From Chloroflexota bacterium (GTDB lineage: Bacteria; Chloroflexota; Anaerolineae; UBA4142; SHND01), in contig JAKOPZ010000296.1 of NCBI GenBank assembly GCA_029778615.1, positions 1 through 64,000 of the forward strand: DNA of 64,000 nt, read 5' to 3'. Positions within the stretch are counted from its first letter, which is position 1. Every line of letters starts with the position of its first letter. Under the pieces are notes generated by a model that worked only from the letters and a program-made list of their open reading frames with translations, had not been told where the DNA came from and ran no database searches. This document shows positions 86 to 64,000 of this stretch, piece by piece. The translations under genes and the position numbers were made by a program.

Positions 86-3000
86 TCAGCGAATCACCAA
101 CCACGTGACCAATTCAAAATCGGTCTTGGTTGTGGCTTGCTGATTTTTTTCGGGCAGCACGGCATCGCGCGATTGTTTCAACGACGCGAGCGCGCGCTTG
201 GTGAATGTGCCGGCGATGGAACGCACCGCCGCGTCGAGCAGCGTATTGTACAGCGTCATGTCCGCGCCGTTTTGCGTTTCGGCATCAAACAGCGCGCACA
301 ATTCTTCATACGGCGTCTTTTTGCCCGCGCACAACGCGCGATACATTTCCAAAATTTGCTTTGGCTGCGCGAACGTGAAACGCACCGTCTTGTCGCGCCA
401 AACATAGACAAGGAAAAACGGCTGCAAGGGATTGATGGTGTTACTTGTCGCCTCCGCGTCGCGCTGCTGCAAACAAAAAATGACGCCGGGTTGAATGAGC
501 GGATACGCGGGGGCGGGCGGCACAACCGCGTACAACCCGAACGGCGCGTCCTCCAATTCTTGACGTTTGCTCGCAATATAATTTGCAAGGTCAATCCGAA
601 AATCGTCGAGCGTGAAATCGGTGAGCGAAACGGATTCGTTGAAATCTTCGAGGTCGAGAATTTCGTCCTTGAGTTTCAACAGTTGGCGGTCGCGATATTT
701 CAAATCGTCGCGCACCAATTCTTCCAACTGCGCCGTGTCCAATACATTGTCTTCGTTCGTCGCCGCAATGTCCACGAGCGCCATGCGCGCTTCGACGCGT
801 TCCTTGAGCGCGATGTAATTTTCCAAGTCGGGCGTGGGCCAAAAATTGACGAGCTGCACCGTGTTATTTTTGCTGCCGATGCGGTCAATGCGCCCAAAGC
901 GTTGAATCACGCGCACGGGGTTCCAGTGAATATCGTAATTGACCAAGTAATCACAGTCCTGCAAATTTTGTCCTTCGGAAATGCAATCCGTCGCAATCAG
1001 CAAATCAATTTCGCCCGTTTGCGGCAGGTCGGAAATTTTGGCGCGCTGTTTGGCGCGCGGGGAAAAATTGGTGAGGATGCGATTGAACTCGGTCTTGTCG
1101 AACGTGGTTCTGTTTTCGTTTCCGCCCGTGACGACGGCGGTGTGAATGCGCAATTCTTGTTTCGCCCACGCGGCGAGTTGGTCGTACAAATAATGCGCGG
1201 TGTCGGCGAACGCGGTGAACACCAACACCTTGCGATTCGGTTCACCGTCGCGGTTGGTGGTCGGCTGCTGCGCTTTGGCGCGAATCAATTCCTTGAGCCG
1301 CGCGAGTTTCGCGTCGCGCGCGGGATTGACCTTTTGCGCTTCGAGATATAGAAACGCGATTTGCTCTTCATCTTTTTTCAAATCGTCCAGCCAACGCGCC
1401 ACATCCAAATCCGCGAACGGATACACCAATTTTTCGCCCACTTGTAGAATGGCTTCGGGTTCTTCGTCATCTTCCAACAATTCGTCCAAATCTTCGGGGT
1501 CGAAATTCGGATTCGTCTCTTGGAGTTGTTGAAAGCGCGTAAGCCGTCCTTGCAAATCGTGAATTTTCTCGAGCGTGCGCTCCATCGTGATCTCGAACGC
1601 CTCGATGGAACTTTCGAGCCGCTTGAGAAAATTCACCTTCATCATCCCAATCAAATAATTTTCAATTTGCTGCTGCGTAAAACGCGTGCCGACGCGCGTG
1701 AGATATTTGGCGCGCACTTCGGGACGCAAATAGTTGGCGGGGCTGAACAACGCGAGTTGATATTTTTCAATCTCGTCGTTCAAGCGGTCATACGGCAAAA
1801 ATTCGCCGTCGCGGTCAATTTCGGCATACAGCGAAAGGGGTTTGGCGCGGCGCGGAAAACCGCCGAGCGCGGCAACACTGTCCGCATAGTAACGGTGAAT
1901 GTGTTTGCGCGAACGCGCGATGGTCAATTCATCGAGCAGTTTGAAAAACGCGGACGAAAGTTTTTGGAGCAAGACGCGCGCGTCGCGTTCGCCCGATTCT
2001 TTTGCCCATTCGTTAAATTGTTTTTGCGCCACGTCGAGCGCGCTTTTCAGATTCGCAATGCCGATGCTGTCCTTGAACGCGTCCTCGCGTCCTTCGCTGA
2101 TGAAATAGATTTGATTGCGCAGGTCAACGAGACTCGTGTTGACGGGCGTTGCCGAAAGCATCAACACCTTGGTCTTGACGCCTTTTTGAATAATCTCGCG
2201 CATCAAGCGTTCGTAACGACTCTGCTTGATGATTTGTCCCTCTTCATCGCGCTTGCCTTTGGTGTTGTTGCGAAAATTGTGCGATTCGTCAATCACCACC
2301 AAATCGTAATTGCCCCAATTGATGGTGGACAAATCTATATCACCGCTCTTGCCGCCGTCGCGCGATAAATCGGTGTGCGACAAAACGTCATAGCGAAAAC
2401 GGTCGCGCACGAACGGATTGAGCGTGTCATTGTGCCGATACACCGTCCAATTCTCGCGCAATTTTTTCGGACACAGCACAAGCACGCGGTCATTCCGTAA
2501 TTCAAAATACTTGATGATGGCGAGCGCGGTGTAGGTTTTGCCCAGCCCCACGCTGTCGGCAATGATGCAGCCGTTGTGTTTGAGAATTTTGTTGATGGCG
2601 CCCTTGACGCCGTCGCGTTGAAATTCAAACAGCGTTTTCCAAATCTCGCTCTCGGTAATCTGATGCTGCGCGTCATCCAAGCCGCCGCGCGTTTGTTCAT
2701 CCACGAATTTGCCAAAGATGTGATAGAGCGTCTTGAAATAAATAAATTCGGGCGCGTGATTTTGATAGAGTTGCGCGAGATATTCCAATACCTCTGCTTT
2801 CACATCTTGCGTCAACTCTGTATTGTTCCACAATTCATCAAACCACGCTTTCAAATCATCACGGTCGCGGCGGTCATTCACAATCAAATTCAATTCGATA
2901 TTGTTTTTCCCTTCGTCCGCCAAACCCAAACCGCGCACGGTAAAATTACTGCTGCCCAAAATCGCTTCGTGAACGCCGTGATTGTCAATGTGGTACAATT

Positions 3001-3370: not shown

Positions 3371-3451
3371 TTTTCATTCTCCCACCCAATAATGTTGCAA
3401 GACTGTAGCGATTATATGTTTCGCTATTTTGTTTGACAAGCGCGTTTTCTT

Positions 3452-3740
3452 TCGCGGTTTTCCTCCTTTTCGCGGGTTTCGAGGTTTTTTTTCGCGGTTT
3501 TCCTCCCTTTCGCGAGTTTCGAGGTTTTTTTCGCGGTTTTCCTCCCTTTCGCGGGTTTCGAGGTTTTTTTTCGCGGTTTTCCTCCCTTTCGCGAGTTTCG
3601 AGGTTTTTTTCGCGGTTTTCCTCCCTTTCGCGAGTTTCGAGGTTTTTTTCGCGGTTTTCCTCCCTTTCGCGAGTTTCGAGGTTTTTTTCGCGGTTTTCCT
3701 CCTTTTCGCGGGTTTCGAGGTTTTTTTCGCGCCTTTCGCG
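3452..3740. repeat. Tandem array of seven 39-40 bp units
   Basis: Seven units begin with TCGCGGTTTTCCTC at 3452, 3492, 3531, 3571, 3610, 3649 and 3688, with a partial eighth at 3727. Units differ almost only in the length of the T run (7-8) and in GCGGG versus GCGAG. There are no unique spacers, so it is not a CRISPR. It fills most of the 417-bp gap between the helicase gene and the lipoprotein gene, the only gene-free gap over 300 bp in the window. Reading frames through it are simple repeats and are not credible genes. Tract-length variation suggests slippage. Confidence 0.9.
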
Positions 3741-5667: not shown

Positions 5668-8367
5668 ATGTCTCGTCTCTTTGCTCTGCTCGCTTATTTT
5701 TTTCTCCTCCTCGTCTCGCTCGGCGTCGCGGCGTTTGCGGTGACGAATCATTTGACGTTGACGCGCGGTGTTGAAACGGATTTTCCCGTCACGCAAAAAA
5801 TTATCGGCACGAATGTGGCGCTCGAAAAATATTCGAGCGCGGCAGAATTGCCGCGCGCGTTCGATATGTTGAAAAACGCGCGCATTGAATATGCGCGGCA
5901 GTATTTTCCGTGGCGCGAAATCGAAACCACGCGCGGTGTGTACGACTGGGAAAAATGGGACAAGGTGGTGAACGCGGCGCGGGCGAACGGGATTCAACTC
6001 GTTGCGGTGTTGACCACTGCGCCCGCATGGAGTCAGCGCCCGAACGAACGCGACATGCCGAACGCGCCGCCCGATGATTTTGCGGAATACGCGCGTTTCG
6101 TCGGCGAGTTTGCAAAACGCTACGGCGATTCAATTCGCTTTTATCAAATTTGGGATGAACCGAATGTCGAACCGAATTGGGGCAAGCGCAATGCAGACCC
6201 GGTGGAATACGCGCAATTACTGATTCCTGCGGCAAAGGCGATTCGCGCGAACGATGCGAACGCGGTGATTGTGCTCGCGGGGCTGGCGATGAATTTGGAA
6301 TTGCATCGCCCGCATCCAAACTATTCGGAAATTTTATTTTTGCGCGGTTTGTACGAAATCGGCGCGCAAAACTATTTTGATATTGTCGCGGCGAAACCGT
6401 ACGGGATGTGGACAGGACCCGAAGACCGCACGGTCAATTCCGGCGTGTTGAATTTTTCGCGCGTGATTTTATTGCGCGATGAAATGCGTCAGTATGGCGA
6501 CGCGCGAAAACCGATGTGGGCAGTCGAGATGGGCTGGAACGCGCTGCCCGCAGATTGGCAAGGCGAACCTTCACCGTGGGGAACGGACACGGAGGAAAAA
6601 CAAGCAGACCGTTTGCAGCGCGCGTTGGTGCGCGCGCAAAACGAATGGAGTTGGTTGACGGGCGAATTTCCGTTGTATCTCCAACCGAACGTCGCACCCG
6701 AAAATCCGCGCTGGGGTTTCTCAATGTTCACGCGCGATTTTCAACCGCGCGCGTTTTATGAAACGCTCAAACAATTTATCACCATACCCACGCGCAGTGT
6801 TCCGCCGCGCGACGCGCCTTTCCTGCCCGTCGCGTTGCTCGGCGGCGTCGCGCTCGTGTCCGCTTGGCGCGCATGGCATTTCGTTTTTGTTTTGAAACTG
6901 GATGAACGTTGGCGCGATTTGAAAACGCGCGTTCATGCGTTTCCCGAACGCGCGCAGTTCTTTGCGATTCTCTTTTGCGTCGCCGCGTTTTATTTTTCGC
7001 CCAATGTGATTTTGAATTTTGTTTTGTTGGGCGCGTTGATTTTGTTGTTCGCCCTGCGTTTGGATTATGGCATTGCGTTCACTATTTTCGCGATTCCGTT
7101 CTGGAATTTTCCCAAAACCTTGTTCGGCGGATTTCAATTGTCGCCGGTCGAAGCGTTGACGTGGATTGCGACGGCGGCGTTTGTGGCAGACGCGCTTTTG
7201 AATCGAACCTTCTCGCGTCGCACTCTCAATCTTCAATCTCTCCTCTCCAAGCTCCAATCTCTCGATTACGCCGTTCTCGCGTTCCTCGCGCTCGCGCTCC
7301 TCTCGACGCGTTGGGCGGGCAATTTCGGCGTGGCGAGCCGCGAATTTCGCATCATCGTCCTCGACCCCATCTTGCTCTATGCCATACTTCGCTTGAGCGC
7401 GTTCGATTTGAAACAGACGCGCCGGTTTGTGAACGCGCTGCTCGCGTCGGGCGTCGCGGTGTGTGCGATTGGCATCTATCAATATTTTTCCGGCGACGTG
7501 ATTTTGGCGGACGGCGTCGCGCGTTTGACGGCGGTCTGGGGTTCGCCGAACAATGTCGGTTTGTACTTGGGACGCTTGCTGCCGATTGCGTTGGCGTTCG
7601 CGTTGATGCTGCGCGGCGGAGGAGGCAACCAAAAGGGTACGCCCTTGCATGATTATACGCGATGGATTTATGCGGGCTTGGTTGCATTGTTCGGCGTGAC
7701 GATTTTGTTGACGTATTCGCGCGGGGCAATTTTTGTCGGCGTGCCCGCGAGTGTCTTGGTTTTGTTCGGCGTGTTGTATTTGCGTTCGCATCATTTGTCG
7801 CGCCGCGCGTGGTTGGTGATGATCGGAACGGTGATGGTTGCAGGGATTGCGCTGGCGCCGTTCCTCACGACCGCGCGCTTTGATTCCTTGTTTCAAACCG
7901 GAACGGGGACGGGCTTTTTTCGCGTTGCGGTGTGGACGAGCGCGGTGAACATGATTCGTGACCATCCGCTGCTCGGCGTGGGGTTGGACAACTTTTTGTA
8001 CGAGTATCCGAAATACATTTTGCCCGACGCGTGGCGCGAGCCGAATCTTTCACACCCGCACAATTTCATTTTGGATTTTTGGGTGCGCTTGGGCATTGGC
8101 GGACTCGCCATTTTTATTTGGATGCTCGTCGCGTTTTTCAAAAGCGCGTGGAAAAATTTTACGGCGGCGGTCTGGGTAGAGACGGAACCGGGTTCCGTCT
8201 CTACCCAGACCTACAACCGCGCGTTAATGTTGGGTTTGATGGCGAGCGTGGTGAATATGCTCGCGCACGGTCTGATTGACGCGTCGTTTTTTGTCGTGGA
8301 TTTGGCGTACGTGTTTCTGTTGACGCTGGCGTTGGTTGCAGCACGGATAGAAACGGAACACGGGTAG
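5668..8367 (+). CDS. Glycoside hydrolase fused to O-antigen ligase/polymerase
   Basis: The 899-residue protein has an N-terminal signal anchor (about 5-25), then a clan-A TIM-barrel glycosidase (about 40-375, GH39/GH5-like). The acid/base sits in IWDEPN (E164) and the nucleophile in WAVEMGW (E287). From about 385 on it is a multi-pass O-antigen ligase/Wzy-type protein with YSRGA and the C-terminal signature HPHNFILDFWVRLG. The ligase half should join or polymerise lipid-linked glycan outside the membrane; the hydrolase half may trim or edit it. Three repeat tracts lie in its C-terminal half: TCTCC-type phrases at about 7222-7262, a 41-bp palindrome at 8170-8210 and a palindrome over the stop codon. 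ATG at 5668 follows an intergenic inverted repeat with no obvious Shine-Dalgarno. Confidence 0.85.
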   Translation: MSRLFALLAYFFLLLVSLGVAAFAVTNHLTLTRGVETDFPVTQKIIGTNVALEKYSSAAELPRAFDMLKNARIEYARQYFPWREIETTRGVYDWEKWDKVVNAARANGIQLVAVLTTAPAWSQRPNERDMPNAPPDDFAEYARFVGEFAKRYGDSIRFYQIWDEPNVEPNWGKRNADPVEYAQLLIPAAKAIRANDANAVIVLAGLAMNLELHRPHPNYSEILFLRGLYEIGAQNYFDIVAAKPYGMWTGPEDRTVNSGVLNFSRVILLRDEMRQYGDARKPMWAVEMGWNALPADWQGEPSPWGTDTEEKQADRLQRALVRAQNEWSWLTGEFPLYLQPNVAPENPRWGFSMFTRDFQPRAFYETLKQFITIPTRSVPPRDAPFLPVALLGGVALVSAWRAWHFVFVLKLDERWRDLKTRVHAFPERAQFFAILFCVAAFYFSPNVILNFVLLGALILLFALRLDYGIAFTIFAIPFWNFPKTLFGGFQLSPVEALTWIATAAFVADALLNRTFSRRTLNLQSLLSKLQSLDYAVLAFLALALLSTRWAGNFGVASREFRIIVLDPILLYAILRLSAFDLKQTRRFVNALLASGVAVCAIGIYQYFSGDVILADGVARLTAVWGSPNNVGLYLGRLLPIALAFALMLRGGGGNQKGTPLHDYTRWIYAGLVALFGVTILLTYSRGAIFVGVPASVLVLFGVLYLRSHHLSRRAWLVMIGTVMVAGIALAPFLTTARFDSLFQTGTGTGFFRVAVWTSAVNMIRDHPLLGVGLDNFLYEYPKYILPDAWREPNLSHPHNFILDFWVRLGIGGLAIFIWMLVAFFKSAWKNFTAAVWVETEPGSVSTQTYNRALMLGLMASVVNMLAHGLIDASFFVVDLAYVFLLTLALVAARIETEHG
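8170..8210. repeat. 41-bp palindrome embedded in the coding sequence
   Basis: Two perfect 20-nt arms (8170-8189 and 8191-8210) flank one base. The core reads ACGGAACC-G-GGTTCCGT with outer GGGTAG/CTACCC. It is read through in frame as VWVETEPGSVSTQT in a loop between membrane helices. A near-identical core occurs between genes at 11813-11845, so this is a dispersed element and not a one-off. Confidence 0.85.
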
Positions 8368-9414: not shown

Positions 9415-9454
9415 ATTTGCCAAGCGAAATCGCGCACGATTTTGTTTGGCAAAT
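9415..9454. repeat. Intergenic hairpin after the SDR gene
   Basis: ATTTGCCAA (9415-9423) pairs with TTGGCAAAT (9446-9454), and inside it AAATCG pairs with CGATTT. The hairpin starts 4 nt after the SDR stop codon and covers a TTG at 9442 that is in frame with the next gene, which argues against that TTG as the start. Confidence 0.7.
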
Positions 9455-9471
9455 GTGCCGGTGTTTTTTTT

Positions 9472-11136
9472 GTGATTCGCGCAGTACCAAAACAGCTTTT
9501 GTTTGGTTATGGCTTTATAGTCTTGGCTGCCTTGGCATTGGCGTTCTTGCCATTGTCAAACGCACTGTTCGTCACATTCGGCGCGCTGCTTTTCGGCGCG
9601 CTGTTGCTTTATCCGCAGGTCGCTGTTTATTTATTGGTGTTTGCCGTACCGTTCGGCTCGCTGCTGCCGTTGAACGTGGGCGGCGCAAAGGTGACGGCGG
9701 CGGACGCGCTGTTGCTCGGCGCATGGGCGTTGTATCTCATGCGCGGGATTGCGCGCCGCAAAATCGCCCTGCGTTTTCCCCCGCTTACTTTGCCGTTCGT
9801 TCTGTTTCTTTTTGCTGCCGCCGTTTCCATCACCGTCGCGCGTTCTTTGCCTGACAGCATCAGCGAATTGACCAAATGGATTGAAATGTTGGCAGCGTAC
9901 TGGCTCATCGCTTTATATTTTGATAGAGCCGATGTGGAACGCTTGTTGGCGGTGATGTTTTGCGCGGGACTGGCGGAAGCGCTGCTCGGCGCGTACCAAT
10001 ATTATTTCCGTGTGGGACCGGAAGGATTTTTATTGTTTGGCGGCGCGAACCTGCGCGCGTATGGTACGTTCGAGCAGCCGAATCCGTATGCGGGCTATCT
10101 GGGGCTGATTCTCCCATTGGCTTTGGGTACGGGATTGGGGCTGCTGGTGATGTTTTTGCGTAGGGAACGAACGCCGTTTCGTTCCATGCCGTTGCGTTCC
10201 ACGGCGTTTCGTTCCATGCCGTTGCGTTCCACGGCGTTGCGTTCCACGGCGTTGCGTTCCACGGCGTTGCGTTCCACGGCGTTGCGTTCCACGGCGTTGC
10301 GTTCCACGGCGTTTCGTTCCACGGCGTTTCGTTCCACGGCGTTTCGTTCCACGGCGTTTCGTTCCATGCCGGTTCGTTCCGCGCGCGTGGAAGGGAACGC
10401 TGCGGCGAGCGTTCCGTACGCGATTTTTGTTTTTTGCCTGGCGAGTCTTGCGCTCGGCGCCATGCTCGCCGCATTATTTTTTTCGTATTCGCGCGGCGCG
10501 TGGATTGGGGTGGCGGCGGCATTGGGGGTGACGACGCTGCTCGTGTTGGTGCGTTCCAAACGCGCGGCAACGTTGGCAATCGTTTCGGGATTGGTCGTGT
10601 TGATTGGAATAGGTCTGGGCGAAATCAATCTCGTGCCAAATATCGTCGCCGAACGCTTTGCGACGGTCGGCGATTATTTTAATTTTGAAGATGTGCGCGG
10701 GGTGCGCGCGAACGACGAAAATTTCGCTTTGGTGGAACGGCGCGCGCATTGGCAAGCGGCGCTCGGCATGTTTGAGGATTCGCCGTGGGTCGGTGTGGGC
10801 TTTGGCAATTACGCGGCGGCATATCCGCAGTACGCGCTGCCGAAATGGGATGACCCTTTGGGACACGCACACAATTATTATTTGAATGTGCTGGCAGAGG
10901 CGGGCGGTATGGGTTTTGTCGCGTATCTGATATTGTGGAGCGCGATGTTTTGGGTCGTGGGACGCGCGGCACTGCACGAGAGTTCGGCGTTCAAACGCGG
11001 CATCCTCGCAGGCGCGTTGGGCGCGCTGGTTACTTTGTCAATTCATAATTTCTTTGATAATCTGTTTGTCCACGCGATGTATATTCAAGTGGGTTTGACG
11101 TTAGGAATGGTCCAGGCACTAAAGGATAACGGTTAG
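9472..11136 (+). CDS. O-antigen ligase family membrane protein with pentapeptide-repeat insert
   Basis: About 554 residues with many hydrophobic segments and the O-antigen ligase (Wzy_C) signatures SYSRGAWIG and HAHNYYLNVLAEAGG. It should transfer or polymerise lipid-linked glycan at the outer face of the membrane. A GTG at 9472 is taken as start because the upstream in-frame TTG (9442) lies in a hairpin; the start is uncertain. At 10160-10419 (about residues 230-316) an insert encodes pentads such as RSTAL and RSTAF, followed by NAAASVPY. The insert falls between membrane segments, is rich in Arg and Ser, and stems from the tandem repeat described separately. The flanking sequence is otherwise normal for the family. 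Confidence 0.8.
   Translation: MIRAVPKQLLFGYGFIVLAALALAFLPLSNALFVTFGALLFGALLLYPQVAVYLLVFAVPFGSLLPLNVGGAKVTAADALLLGAWALYLMRGIARRKIALRFPPLTLPFVLFLFAAAVSITVARSLPDSISELTKWIEMLAAYWLIALYFDRADVERLLAVMFCAGLAEALLGAYQYYFRVGPEGFLLFGGANLRAYGTFEQPNPYAGYLGLILPLALGTGLGLLVMFLRRERTPFRSMPLRSTAFRSMPLRSTALRSTALRSTALRSTALRSTALRSTAFRSTAFRSTAFRSTAFRSMPVRSARVEGNAAASVPYAIFVFCLASLALGAMLAALFFSYSRGAWIGVAAALGVTTLLVLVRSKRAATLAIVSGLVVLIGIGLGEINLVPNIVAERFATVGDYFNFEDVRGVRANDENFALVERRAHWQAALGMFEDSPWVGVGFGNYAAAYPQYALPKWDDPLGHAHNYYLNVLAEAGGMGFVAYLILWSAMFWVVGRAALHESSAFKRGILAGALGALVTLSIHNFFDNLFVHAMYIQVGLTLGMVQALKDNG
10160..10419. repeat. GGAACG-bounded element with thirteen 15-bp units, inside coding sequence
   Basis: The tract begins GTAGGGAACG and ends CGTTCCGTAC. 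It contains thirteen consecutive 15-bp units starting CGTTCC (10180 to 10374), mostly CGTTCCACGGCGTTG or the TTT variant, each encoding one pentapeptide. Near its end lies a palindrome with arms GGAACGCT (10394-10401) and AGCGTTCC (10408-10415) around the loop GCGGCG. The same palindrome, base for base, recurs at 62821-62842 in an unrelated gene. The host frame is preserved throughout. Confidence 0.9.
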
Positions 11137-11812: not shown

Positions 11813-11869
11813 GGGTAGCAACGGAACCGGGTTCCGTTGCTACCCGGGCACAGAACCAGGTTCTGTGCC
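11813..11869. repeat. Double palindrome between convergent genes
   Basis: The first palindrome has 16-nt arms (11813-11828 and 11830-11845) around one base. The second has 11-nt arms (11847-11857 and 11859-11869) around one base. Cores are ACGGAACC/GGTTCCGT and CAGAACC/GGTTCTG, with GGGTAG/CTACCC outer parts. The first core matches the palindrome embedded in the hydrolase/ligase gene at 8170-8210. Confidence 0.85.
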
Positions 11870-62165: not shown

Positions 62166-62195
62166 ACCTGCTACTTGCTACTTGATACTCGCTAC
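62166..62195. repeat. Short CTACTTG-type quasi-repeat
   Basis: The gap reads ACCTGCTACTTGCTACTTGA then TACTCGCTAC, a run of related seven-base phrases. The same phrases occur at 34066-34093 before the flippase-like gene. Confidence 0.6.
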
Positions 62196-63575
62196 ATGGA
62201 TTTTGTTTTTCTTTCGACGCAAGGTTGGGATGAGATGGGCGGCGCGGGACGTCCGACGCATTTCCTCGCGCGCGAATTGTTGACGCGCGGACATCGCGTT
62301 TTGTTTGTCGAATTCGTCGCCAGTGAAAAACGCGCGGCGGACAAAAATTTTTCGCTGTTGAATTTTTCCGCGTTGGGTTATACCGAAACCGCGCTGCGCC
62401 GCGCGTGGTTCGGACTCGCACCGCACTTGGATTCACGCGAAACGTTATCGCGCGCGCTCGACGCGTTTGAATCACCCAACGCCGAACGCGCGGTCGTGTA
62501 CGGTGACCCGTTCGTTCCGTTTGTAGAATGGTTTTCAATTTTTCGCGCGCGCGGGTACAAAATCGTTTATGATGCGCTCGACGATTTTGAAGCGTTTCCC
62601 GAAATCGGATTGTATTTTGCGAATCAACACGCGGAAAAATTTCTCGTCGCACAGTGCGACCTTGTGATTGCCGTTTCGACAACGCTCGCGGAAAGATTAT
62701 CGCAATGGGAACATCGCGCGCCGATTCAACTCTTGCGCCAAGGATTCGACGCAAAACTTTTTCGCACAAGTACGGAACGCTCACCGCAGCGTTCCCCGCC
62801 GTTTCGTTCCCCTGCGCGATGGAACGCTGCGGCGAGCGTTCCCTACACGCTGGGGTTTTGGGGACATGTCAACGCGTTCAACATAGACGTCGCGTTGATT
62901 GAACACGTTGCGCGCACGCGTCCGCAGTGGACGATTCAACTCATCGGACCCATTGACCACGACCCGAATTTGCCGCGCGTGCAAGAACGTTTGCGCGCGT
63001 TGCCGAATGTGCAGTTGCTCGGACGCGTCGCGCATGAGGAACTGCCGCGCTATTTGCAAGCGTTCGACGTTGCGCTGATTCCGTTTCCCGACAACGCGTT
63101 CAACCGCGCGCGCGACCCGCTCAAAGTGTTTGAATATCTGAGCGGCTACAAACCTGTCGTCGTGTCCAACACGCCGCAGTTGGCGAACATGCCGTATGTG
63201 TACCTCGCTACCACGCCGCAAGAATTCTTGGAAACAATTGAGCGCGCGGCGGCGATTCCTGTGGAACGCGCGGTGGTGGATGCGTACTTGGACAATTGCA
63301 CGTGGGCGGCGCGGCTCGACCAGCTGTTGGCGTGGCTGCGCGAAACCACACCCGCTGCCGAGTCCGCCAAACCAAATACAGCAGATTGGTACGCGGACGC
63401 GCGAACGAGCAAGAATGTCCAAGAATACATCTCGCGGTCGGAGATACTGCTTGATGAACGCACAAAGTATATTCACTCACTTGAGAGCGATATTAAAGCA
63501 AAACAAGCATATATCAACAAATTGCAATCTTCTAATTTATTTTGGAGTATAAAAAATCTATTTGCGCGAAAATGA
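62196..63575 (+). CDS. Glycosyltransferase (GT-B), TuaH-like, paralogue b with in-frame repeat insert
   Basis: The 459-residue protein parallels the gene at 53904: MDFVFLSTQGWDEMGGAGRPTH, GHRVLFVEF, VYDALDDFEAFPE, YTLGFWGHVNAFN and NAFNRARDPLKVFEYLSGYKPVVVS. Between residues about 192 and 217 an insert encodes TERSPQRSPPFRS, then PARWNAAASVPY, corresponding to the repeat at 62770-62846. In paralogue a the same place holds FEPREFQNALADAPNVLRGE, so the insert replaced a variable loop. The last 50 residues are AT-rich, coiled and end SIKNLFARK. The insert probably does not stop folding because both flanks are normal. Confidence 0.8.
   Translation: MDFVFLSTQGWDEMGGAGRPTHFLARELLTRGHRVLFVEFVASEKRAADKNFSLLNFSALGYTETALRRAWFGLAPHLDSRETLSRALDAFESPNAERAVVYGDPFVPFVEWFSIFRARGYKIVYDALDDFEAFPEIGLYFANQHAEKFLVAQCDLVIAVSTTLAERLSQWEHRAPIQLLRQGFDAKLFRTSTERSPQRSPPFRSPARWNAAASVPYTLGFWGHVNAFNIDVALIEHVARTRPQWTIQLIGPIDHDPNLPRVQERLRALPNVQLLGRVAHEELPRYLQAFDVALIPFPDNAFNRARDPLKVFEYLSGYKPVVVSNTPQLANMPYVYLATTPQEFLETIERAAAIPVERAVVDAYLDNCTWAARLDQLLAWLRETTPAAESAKPNTADWYADARTSKNVQEYISRSEILLDERTKYIHSLESDIKAKQAYINKLQSSNLFWSIKNLFARK
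62770..62846. repeat. GGAACG/CGTTCC palindromic element inside coding sequence
   Basis: The element starts GTACGGAACGCTC and ends GAGCGTTCCCTAC, forming inverted ends. It contains the palindrome with arms GGAACGCT (62821-62828) and AGCGTTCC (62835-62842) around GCGGCG, identical to the one at 10394-10415. The gene reads through it as NAAASVPY. Confidence 0.9.
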
Positions 63576-63712: not shown

Positions 63713-64000
63713 ATGAACATCATTTTTATGAGCCCCATTGCGTGGGACAATTCCGACGGCGCACATCGTCCCGTGCAGTTCGCGCAAGAGCTCGCGCGGC
63801 GCGGACATCGCGTGACGTACATTGAAATCGAGGCGAGCCGCGCGCCCGTTGCAAGCGAAAATCCGCGCGTGTTGAGTTTTCAGCAATTGGGTTGGGATGA
63901 GTTGAATCTGGTGCGCGCGTGGTACGGATTTGAATATGCCGCGCCGCGCGGGAACGAAGCGGCGAGGGAGAACGGGAACGAAGCGGCGTTCGTTCCGTAC
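63713..64000 (+). CDS. Glycosyltransferase (GT-B), TuaH-like, paralogue c, 3' end outside the window
   Basis: The first 96 codons are visible and stay open at the right edge. The start MNIIFMSPIAWDNSDGAHRP then VQFAQELARRGHRVTYIEIE aligns with the genes at 53904 and 62196. From about residue 79 the sequence reads PRGNEAARENGNEAAFVPY, which is not found in the paralogues at this point and comes from a GGAACG-type repeat. The gene is probably a third member of this glycosyltransferase set. The 5' spacer has no ribosome site. Confidence 0.75.
   Translation, partial: MNIIFMSPIAWDNSDGAHRPVQFAQELARRGHRVTYIEIEASRAPVASENPRVLSFQQLGWDELNLVRAWYGFEYAAPRGNEAARENGNEAAFVPY
63950..64000. repeat. GGAACG-type element inside coding sequence, cut by the window edge
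   Basis: It holds GGGAACGAAGCGGCG twice and ends CGTTCGTTCCGTAC. The frame reads GNEAA twice and then FVPY. The end phrase CGTTCCGTAC matches the end of the element at 10160-10419. Confidence 0.75.

Follow-up and report, generated by a model that had tools for sequence, protein, structure and literature searches.

A probable RAYT-associated REP doublet with an expanded half-palindrome core in the reading frame of a Chloroflexota O-antigen ligase gene

REPs are usually treated as extragenic. Among the closest described systems, the GTAG REPs with their RAYTs and REPtrons (PMC2817692, PMC3733652, PMC6006769) have a 5′ GTA(G) head, a short stem-loop, more than 100 copies and a transposase gene lying between copies of the same REP, with some REPs being intragenic, and all of this is shared by the family described here. 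In the available text of PMC3733652, in-frame intragenic REPs of both the GTAG and the CGTC type are described in several species; like the present ones, those of O. terrae, Thauera, and R. conorii lie in frame within conserved genes, and related species sometimes share the site; in the latter two, the intragenic clusters code for 43-82 aa. REPINs and BIMEs (PMC3116915) consist of an inverted REP pair with heads outward, an arrangement also seen at 10160-10419 of the window, as we call the whole 64,000-nucleotide stretch analyzed here, while Rickettsia palindromic elements (RPEs) share with this locus palindromes that lie in frame inside ORFs.

The locus comprises the following features.

9442 to 11136, plus strand: host gene, an O-antigen ligase / Wzy_C-family membrane protein, an uninterrupted ORF
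10160 to 10185, plus strand: REP 1, a GTAG head followed by GGAACGAA-CGCCGT-TTCGTTCC (stem 8, loop 6, stem 8)
10180 to 10374, plus strand: thirteen 15-bp half-REP units (ACGGCGTTGCGTTCC / ACGGCGTTTCGTTCC / ATGCCGTTGCGTTCC), from TRF and the reading frame
10394 to 10419, minus strand: REP 2, inverted, a GTAC head followed by GGAACGCT-CGCCGC-AGCGTTCC

A first-pass annotation had placed a palindrome-ended, in-frame insertion in an intact ligase, and this reading stands: the ORF, 564 aa when counted from this start, is uninterrupted, and the Wzy_C profile (PF04932) matches residues 337-496, downstream of the array (E = 1.2e-24). In the letters of the window, the inserted segment starts at 10160 with GTAGGGAACG and ends at 10419 with CGTTCCGTAC. 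TRF finds a period of 15 with 13.1 copies and 93% matches at 10171-10366, in a MAG assembly where array lengths may be collapsed or misstated. The earlier count of thirteen units holds, while the statement that all of them read RSTAL or RSTAF applies to ten, the other three being RSMPL or RSMPV (in order, RSMPL, RSTAF, RSMPL, five RSTAL, four RSTAF, and RSMPV). The palindrome described as NAAASVPY is likewise present, with 10394-10415 reading GNAAASVPY on the plus strand in the ligase frame. The heads of the two REPs both point outward, in a REPIN/BIME-like manner. Contrary to the annotation's division of the segment into a palindrome and a separate core, the core consists of repeats of one half of that palindrome: the unit ACGGCGTTTCGTTCC is, directly from its letters, the REP loop, the 3′ arm, and a spacer.

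Both ends of the segment are read as RAYT-associated REPs because they combine a one-sided head with a stem-loop, as such REPs do (PMC2817692, PMC3733652). The anatomy is observed directly, with 26 bp divided into a head of 4, a stem of 8, a loop of 6, and a stem of 8, in three stem variants (AA, CT, and TT); the single-stranded form with a GTAG head is GTAG-GGAACGAACGCCGTTTCGTTCC. Copy number is observed directly as well. A search of both strands of the 6.0-Mb genome (G000) with GTA[GC]GGAACG-N10-CGTTCC, allowing at most one mismatch, gave 80 and 84 strand matches, the reversed control giving 0 and 1, while the genome search for the 8-bp arms that the annotation had proposed located GGAACGCT-N6-AGCGTTCC at 105 places against 4 in the control (at most two mismatches), with copies of the element in both coding and non-coding DNA. 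At one mismatch, the genome holds 145 REPs in 79 clusters, most of which are not coding-through by codon scoring, in which coding calls are approximate. When 77 palindromes are oriented by their CGCCG[CT] loop, the heads are GTAG (40), GTAC (28), GTAT (5), and others (4), with G at position -4 in all 77, T at -3 in 76, and A at -2 in 74; there is no pattern on the 3′ side, making the head one-sided. Because a head-bearing pattern had fetched some of these loci, the CT-type palindromes, also found by a head-free pattern, were counted alone, giving GTAG 13, GTAC 10, and GTAT 2. The family thus has the one-sided head, for which GT(A/G)G is the class sequence, the 20-40 bp stem-loop with a non-complementary middle, and the high dispersed copy number of GTAG REPs, with the GTAC heads (28 of the 77, REP 2 of the ligase included) falling outside the strict GTAG definition. 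REP pairs within 300 bp are arranged heads-out (11), in the same direction (10), or heads-in (4).

A transposase gene with REPs identical to REP 1 is present in the same genome. The ORF at 372-935 (minus strand) of G000:C6 matches the REP-associated tyrosine transposase profile NF047646 at 76.9 bits (E = 1.5e-21), just under its curated cut-off of 80, contains a PDHLH motif, and has REPs on both sides. The 26 bases of REP 1 (10160-10185) recur identically at G000:C6:42-67, 187-212, 350-375, and 1050-1075, and again at G002:C104:3302-3327, in a congener whose 93% orthologue of the C6 RAYT lies between REPs, one of which overlaps the stop codon. The REPs around the C6 RAYT all point one way, unlike the canonical inverted pair, while those around the RAYT in G002 and in a Pirellulales MAG (L323) are inverted. 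GGAACG-family REPs are carried by G001 and G005, in which no close RAYT orthologue was found, possibly owing to MAG gaps; at the search settings used, G003 and G004 have no copies of the family. Other Y1 transposase genes were rejected as cognates, the 3-3.5 kb read for those on C192 and C94 containing no GGAACG REP and that on C164 having only one two-mismatch REP match. A sequence search of solved structures gave no RAYT match to the C6 protein, and a plasmid search with a 56-base piece was likewise empty. Judged by its sequence and flanks, the C6 RAYT is the putative cognate of the ligase REPs, which it is predicted to bind, cleave, and mobilize. The ligase segment is very probably a RAYT-associated GTAG-class REP doublet that was inserted in a loop of the ligase and of which one half was then tandemly expanded.

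Relatives of this RAYT occur at 55% in an Armatimonadota JAKPKV MAG (L322) and at 51% in the Pirellulales JAICLL MAG (L323), where GTAG-GGAACGCC-CTCCGT-GGCGTTCC brackets them, while none of the RAYT matches listed from other genera of the Chloroflexota genome's own class exceeds 36%. With the source MAGs taken as labelled, the enzyme and the GGAACG REP stem appear to co-occur in three phyla, and the greater closeness of the Armatimonadota and Planctomycetes RAYTs than of the same-class matches from other genera points to joint transfer of RAYT and REP between phyla. Horizontal transfer of RAYT-type genes has already been proposed (PMC6006769). The exact REP pattern was also noted in MAGs named Armatimonadota, Acidobacteria, Pirellulales, and Abditibacteriales (L213, L215, L217, L232, L247, L277, and others), far above chance for its length. 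These data bear on the comparison with Rickettsia palindromic elements made in the first-pass annotation, which holds as an analogy and fails as a class, the GTAG heads and cognate RAYT placing the element with REPs instead. That the segment belongs to an RPE-like family apart from REPs, spreading into coding regions by its own means, would fit its in-frame placement in conserved genes, yet it is extremely unlikely given the GTAG head, the 26-bp unit, the cognate RAYT, and the RAYT linkage in three phyla. Moreover, most clusters here do not code through by codon scoring, and in the available text of PMC3733652 RPE-4 and RPE-6 belong to the CGTC REPs rather than the GTAG REPs and RPE-1 is a longer palindrome, whereas the heads here are GTAG or GTAC.

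A ligase match is present in 57 of 60 relatives, and the alignment suggested earlier to look for an empty site does find element-free sites, observed directly: in five congeners and some 20 further members of the class, read on both strands, the ligase has a short, variable loop at the array position and lacks the array in every case. In G001, one of the congeners, this loop holds another element of the family, which likewise starts with GTAGGGAACG and ends with CGTTCCGTAC but differs in its interior. As the orthologous loops have diverged in length and sequence, no exact target site or duplication can be called at the ligase. In an AlphaFold model built from 16 orthologues, residues 247-317 of the insert have a pLDDT of about 38 and lie between confident helices at 215-243 and 320-346, so that the insert is predicted to form a disordered loop between two helices. 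The Pfam pentapeptide-repeat model Pentapeptide_4 reaches 20.1 bits here, below the family cut-off of 38. Rather than adding a function, the peptide encoded by the insert is probably a disordered linker that the protein tolerates.

At least 13 genes in this genome, the ligase among them, have in-frame half-REP arrays, whose units measure 12-21 bp and reach 20 copies. Their periods are 12, 15, 18, and 21, and the hosts include gltB, an smc-like gene, an Lhr-type helicase, and several membrane proteins, while the periods of arrays that are not coding-through include 11, 16, 17, and 22. In-frame placement is directly supported: when coding status is called from the flanks alone, 14 arrays lie between coding flanks on one strand, and in 11 of these the frame is preserved (p = 0.0007 for an expected one-third), each of the 11 having a period divisible by 3; the remaining three may be intergenic. 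Divisibility of the period by 3 in 13 of 14 coding arrays and 10 of 16 others (p = 0.06) is suggestive at most and weaker than the frame test. In the longest in-frame array observed, an 18-bp half-REP unit (SDSPQR) is repeated about 20 times within an APH-family kinase-like ORF (L189 1530-1886, G000:C306); in congener G002, a ParA-like ORF (L298 910-1893) has an in-frame 18-bp half-REP array ahead of a DCPPSLG motif.

Two further explanations can be set against this evidence. The ligase array is a clean tandem repeat, and variable loops between transmembrane helices tolerate repeats, so that an ordinary coding minisatellite might have arisen by slippage from native loop codons, its likeness to REPs being due to chance or low complexity. 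This is very unlikely, since headed full REPs cap both ends of the array, the left 26-mer recurs letter for letter at the RAYT gene, and half-palindrome arrays of the same type occur in no fewer than 12 unrelated genes as well as in DNA that is not coding. Alternatively, an RS-rich pentapeptide repeat, or a wider set of inserts, could be a functional module kept by selection, for example for loop tuning or as an exposed interaction, which would accord with the frame kept in 11 of 14 arrays and with the different REP-derived insert in the same loop of G001. We consider this improbable: the encoded peptide changes with frame and REP type (RSTAL, SDSPQR, AGNVAAA, ERYGEQ, and AASFP), the congeners manage without it, it is predicted to be disordered, and frame-keeping would already follow from purifying selection acting on the host protein.

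The expandable core proposed in the annotation gains support from other genes, where the copy number of such cores varies between orthologous sites. In gltB, G000 has five 15-bp units, G002 a short remnant, and G001, G003, G004, and G005 none, the insert falling between residues 278 and 280 of the solved GltA 7mfm. A YfhO-like gene contains 6.3 copies of an 18-bp unit in G000, 3.4 in G001, and none in G003-G005. Further REPs lie toward the end of the window.

62770 to 62795, plus strand: REP with a GTAC head, in frame in the glycosyltransferase-like ORF 62175-63575
62821 to 62846, minus strand: inverted partner REP with a GTAG head, in the same ORF
63975 to 64000, minus strand: single REP with a GTAC head, at the window edge

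The site at 62770-62846 is a 75-bp array of three copies in congener G002 and has no element in the G001, G003, and G004 matches, although some congener matches may be paralogues. Copy-number differences are directly supported at this second site of the window and in the YfhO-like gene. A stronger proposal is that half-REP arrays are an active, RAYT-driven means of protein diversification, in which REPs are seeded in genes and hairpin processing expands and contracts the units in frame. This is unlikely; if true, many housekeeping and surface-polymer genes would carry variable linkers that differ between close strains.

For the preferred reading, a RAYT-associated REP doublet with one half expanded, we infer its mobility, target choice, and expansion mechanism as follows. 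The RAYT would have introduced a REPIN/BIME-like REP doublet, via a single-stranded hairpin, into the ligase loop that joins two transmembrane helices, a route already proposed for REPs and REPINs. The direct-repeat half of the palindrome (loop and 3′ arm, 15 bp with spacer) would then have expanded in tandem, the array growing as replication slipped, or switched templates, at the CGTTCC half-palindromes repeated along it, while purifying selection on host proteins would remove frame-breaking arrays in genes.

Other repeats were seen alongside this family. A second palindrome family, GTAG-(C/A)(A/G)ACGGAACC-N-GGTTCCGT(T/C)..CTAC, lies in ORFs and is read as W(V)xTEPGSVxT; it occurs in the N-terminal stretch of a mutL-like ORF and as two further gltB inserts, and also in gltB of G004. 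Its copies are listed below, together with a tandem array of the window.

8176 to 8204 of the window: second palindrome family
11815 to 11843 of the window: second palindrome family
L105, at 1411 and at 2212: second palindrome family
L017, at 382: second palindrome family
3444 to 3731 of the window: 39/40-bp tandem array, 7.3 copies, GTTTTTTTCGCGGTTTTCCTCCCTTTCGCGAGTTTCGAG (TRF)

In a single genome, one RAYT/REP family has put repeats that can expand and keep the frame into 13 or more genes, conserved enzymes included, and empty sites and differing copy numbers stand side by side in related species. Therefore, the movement of REPs, the passage from half-palindrome to minisatellite, and the tolerance of conserved proteins for added peptide become testable. 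Compared with described GTAG REPs and REPtrons, the family here has a GTAC head in about one-third of copies, forms half-REP tandem arrays of 4-20 units, and has a GGAACG stem seen in Chloroflexota, Armatimonadota, and Planctomycetes. Published REPINs and BIMEs are extragenic, with clusters that repeat whole REPs or REPINs (PMC3116915), whereas here the spacer is a translated half-REP array, and heads-outward pairs hardly outnumber same-direction pairs in this genome. Neither half-REP arrays nor orthologous copy-number differences are described in the available text of PMC3733652, the open literature having been searched. In-frame REPs are an already known principle, while genome-wide in-frame half-REP arrays with orthologous copy-number differences look new, as does the cross-phylum RAYT/REP set.
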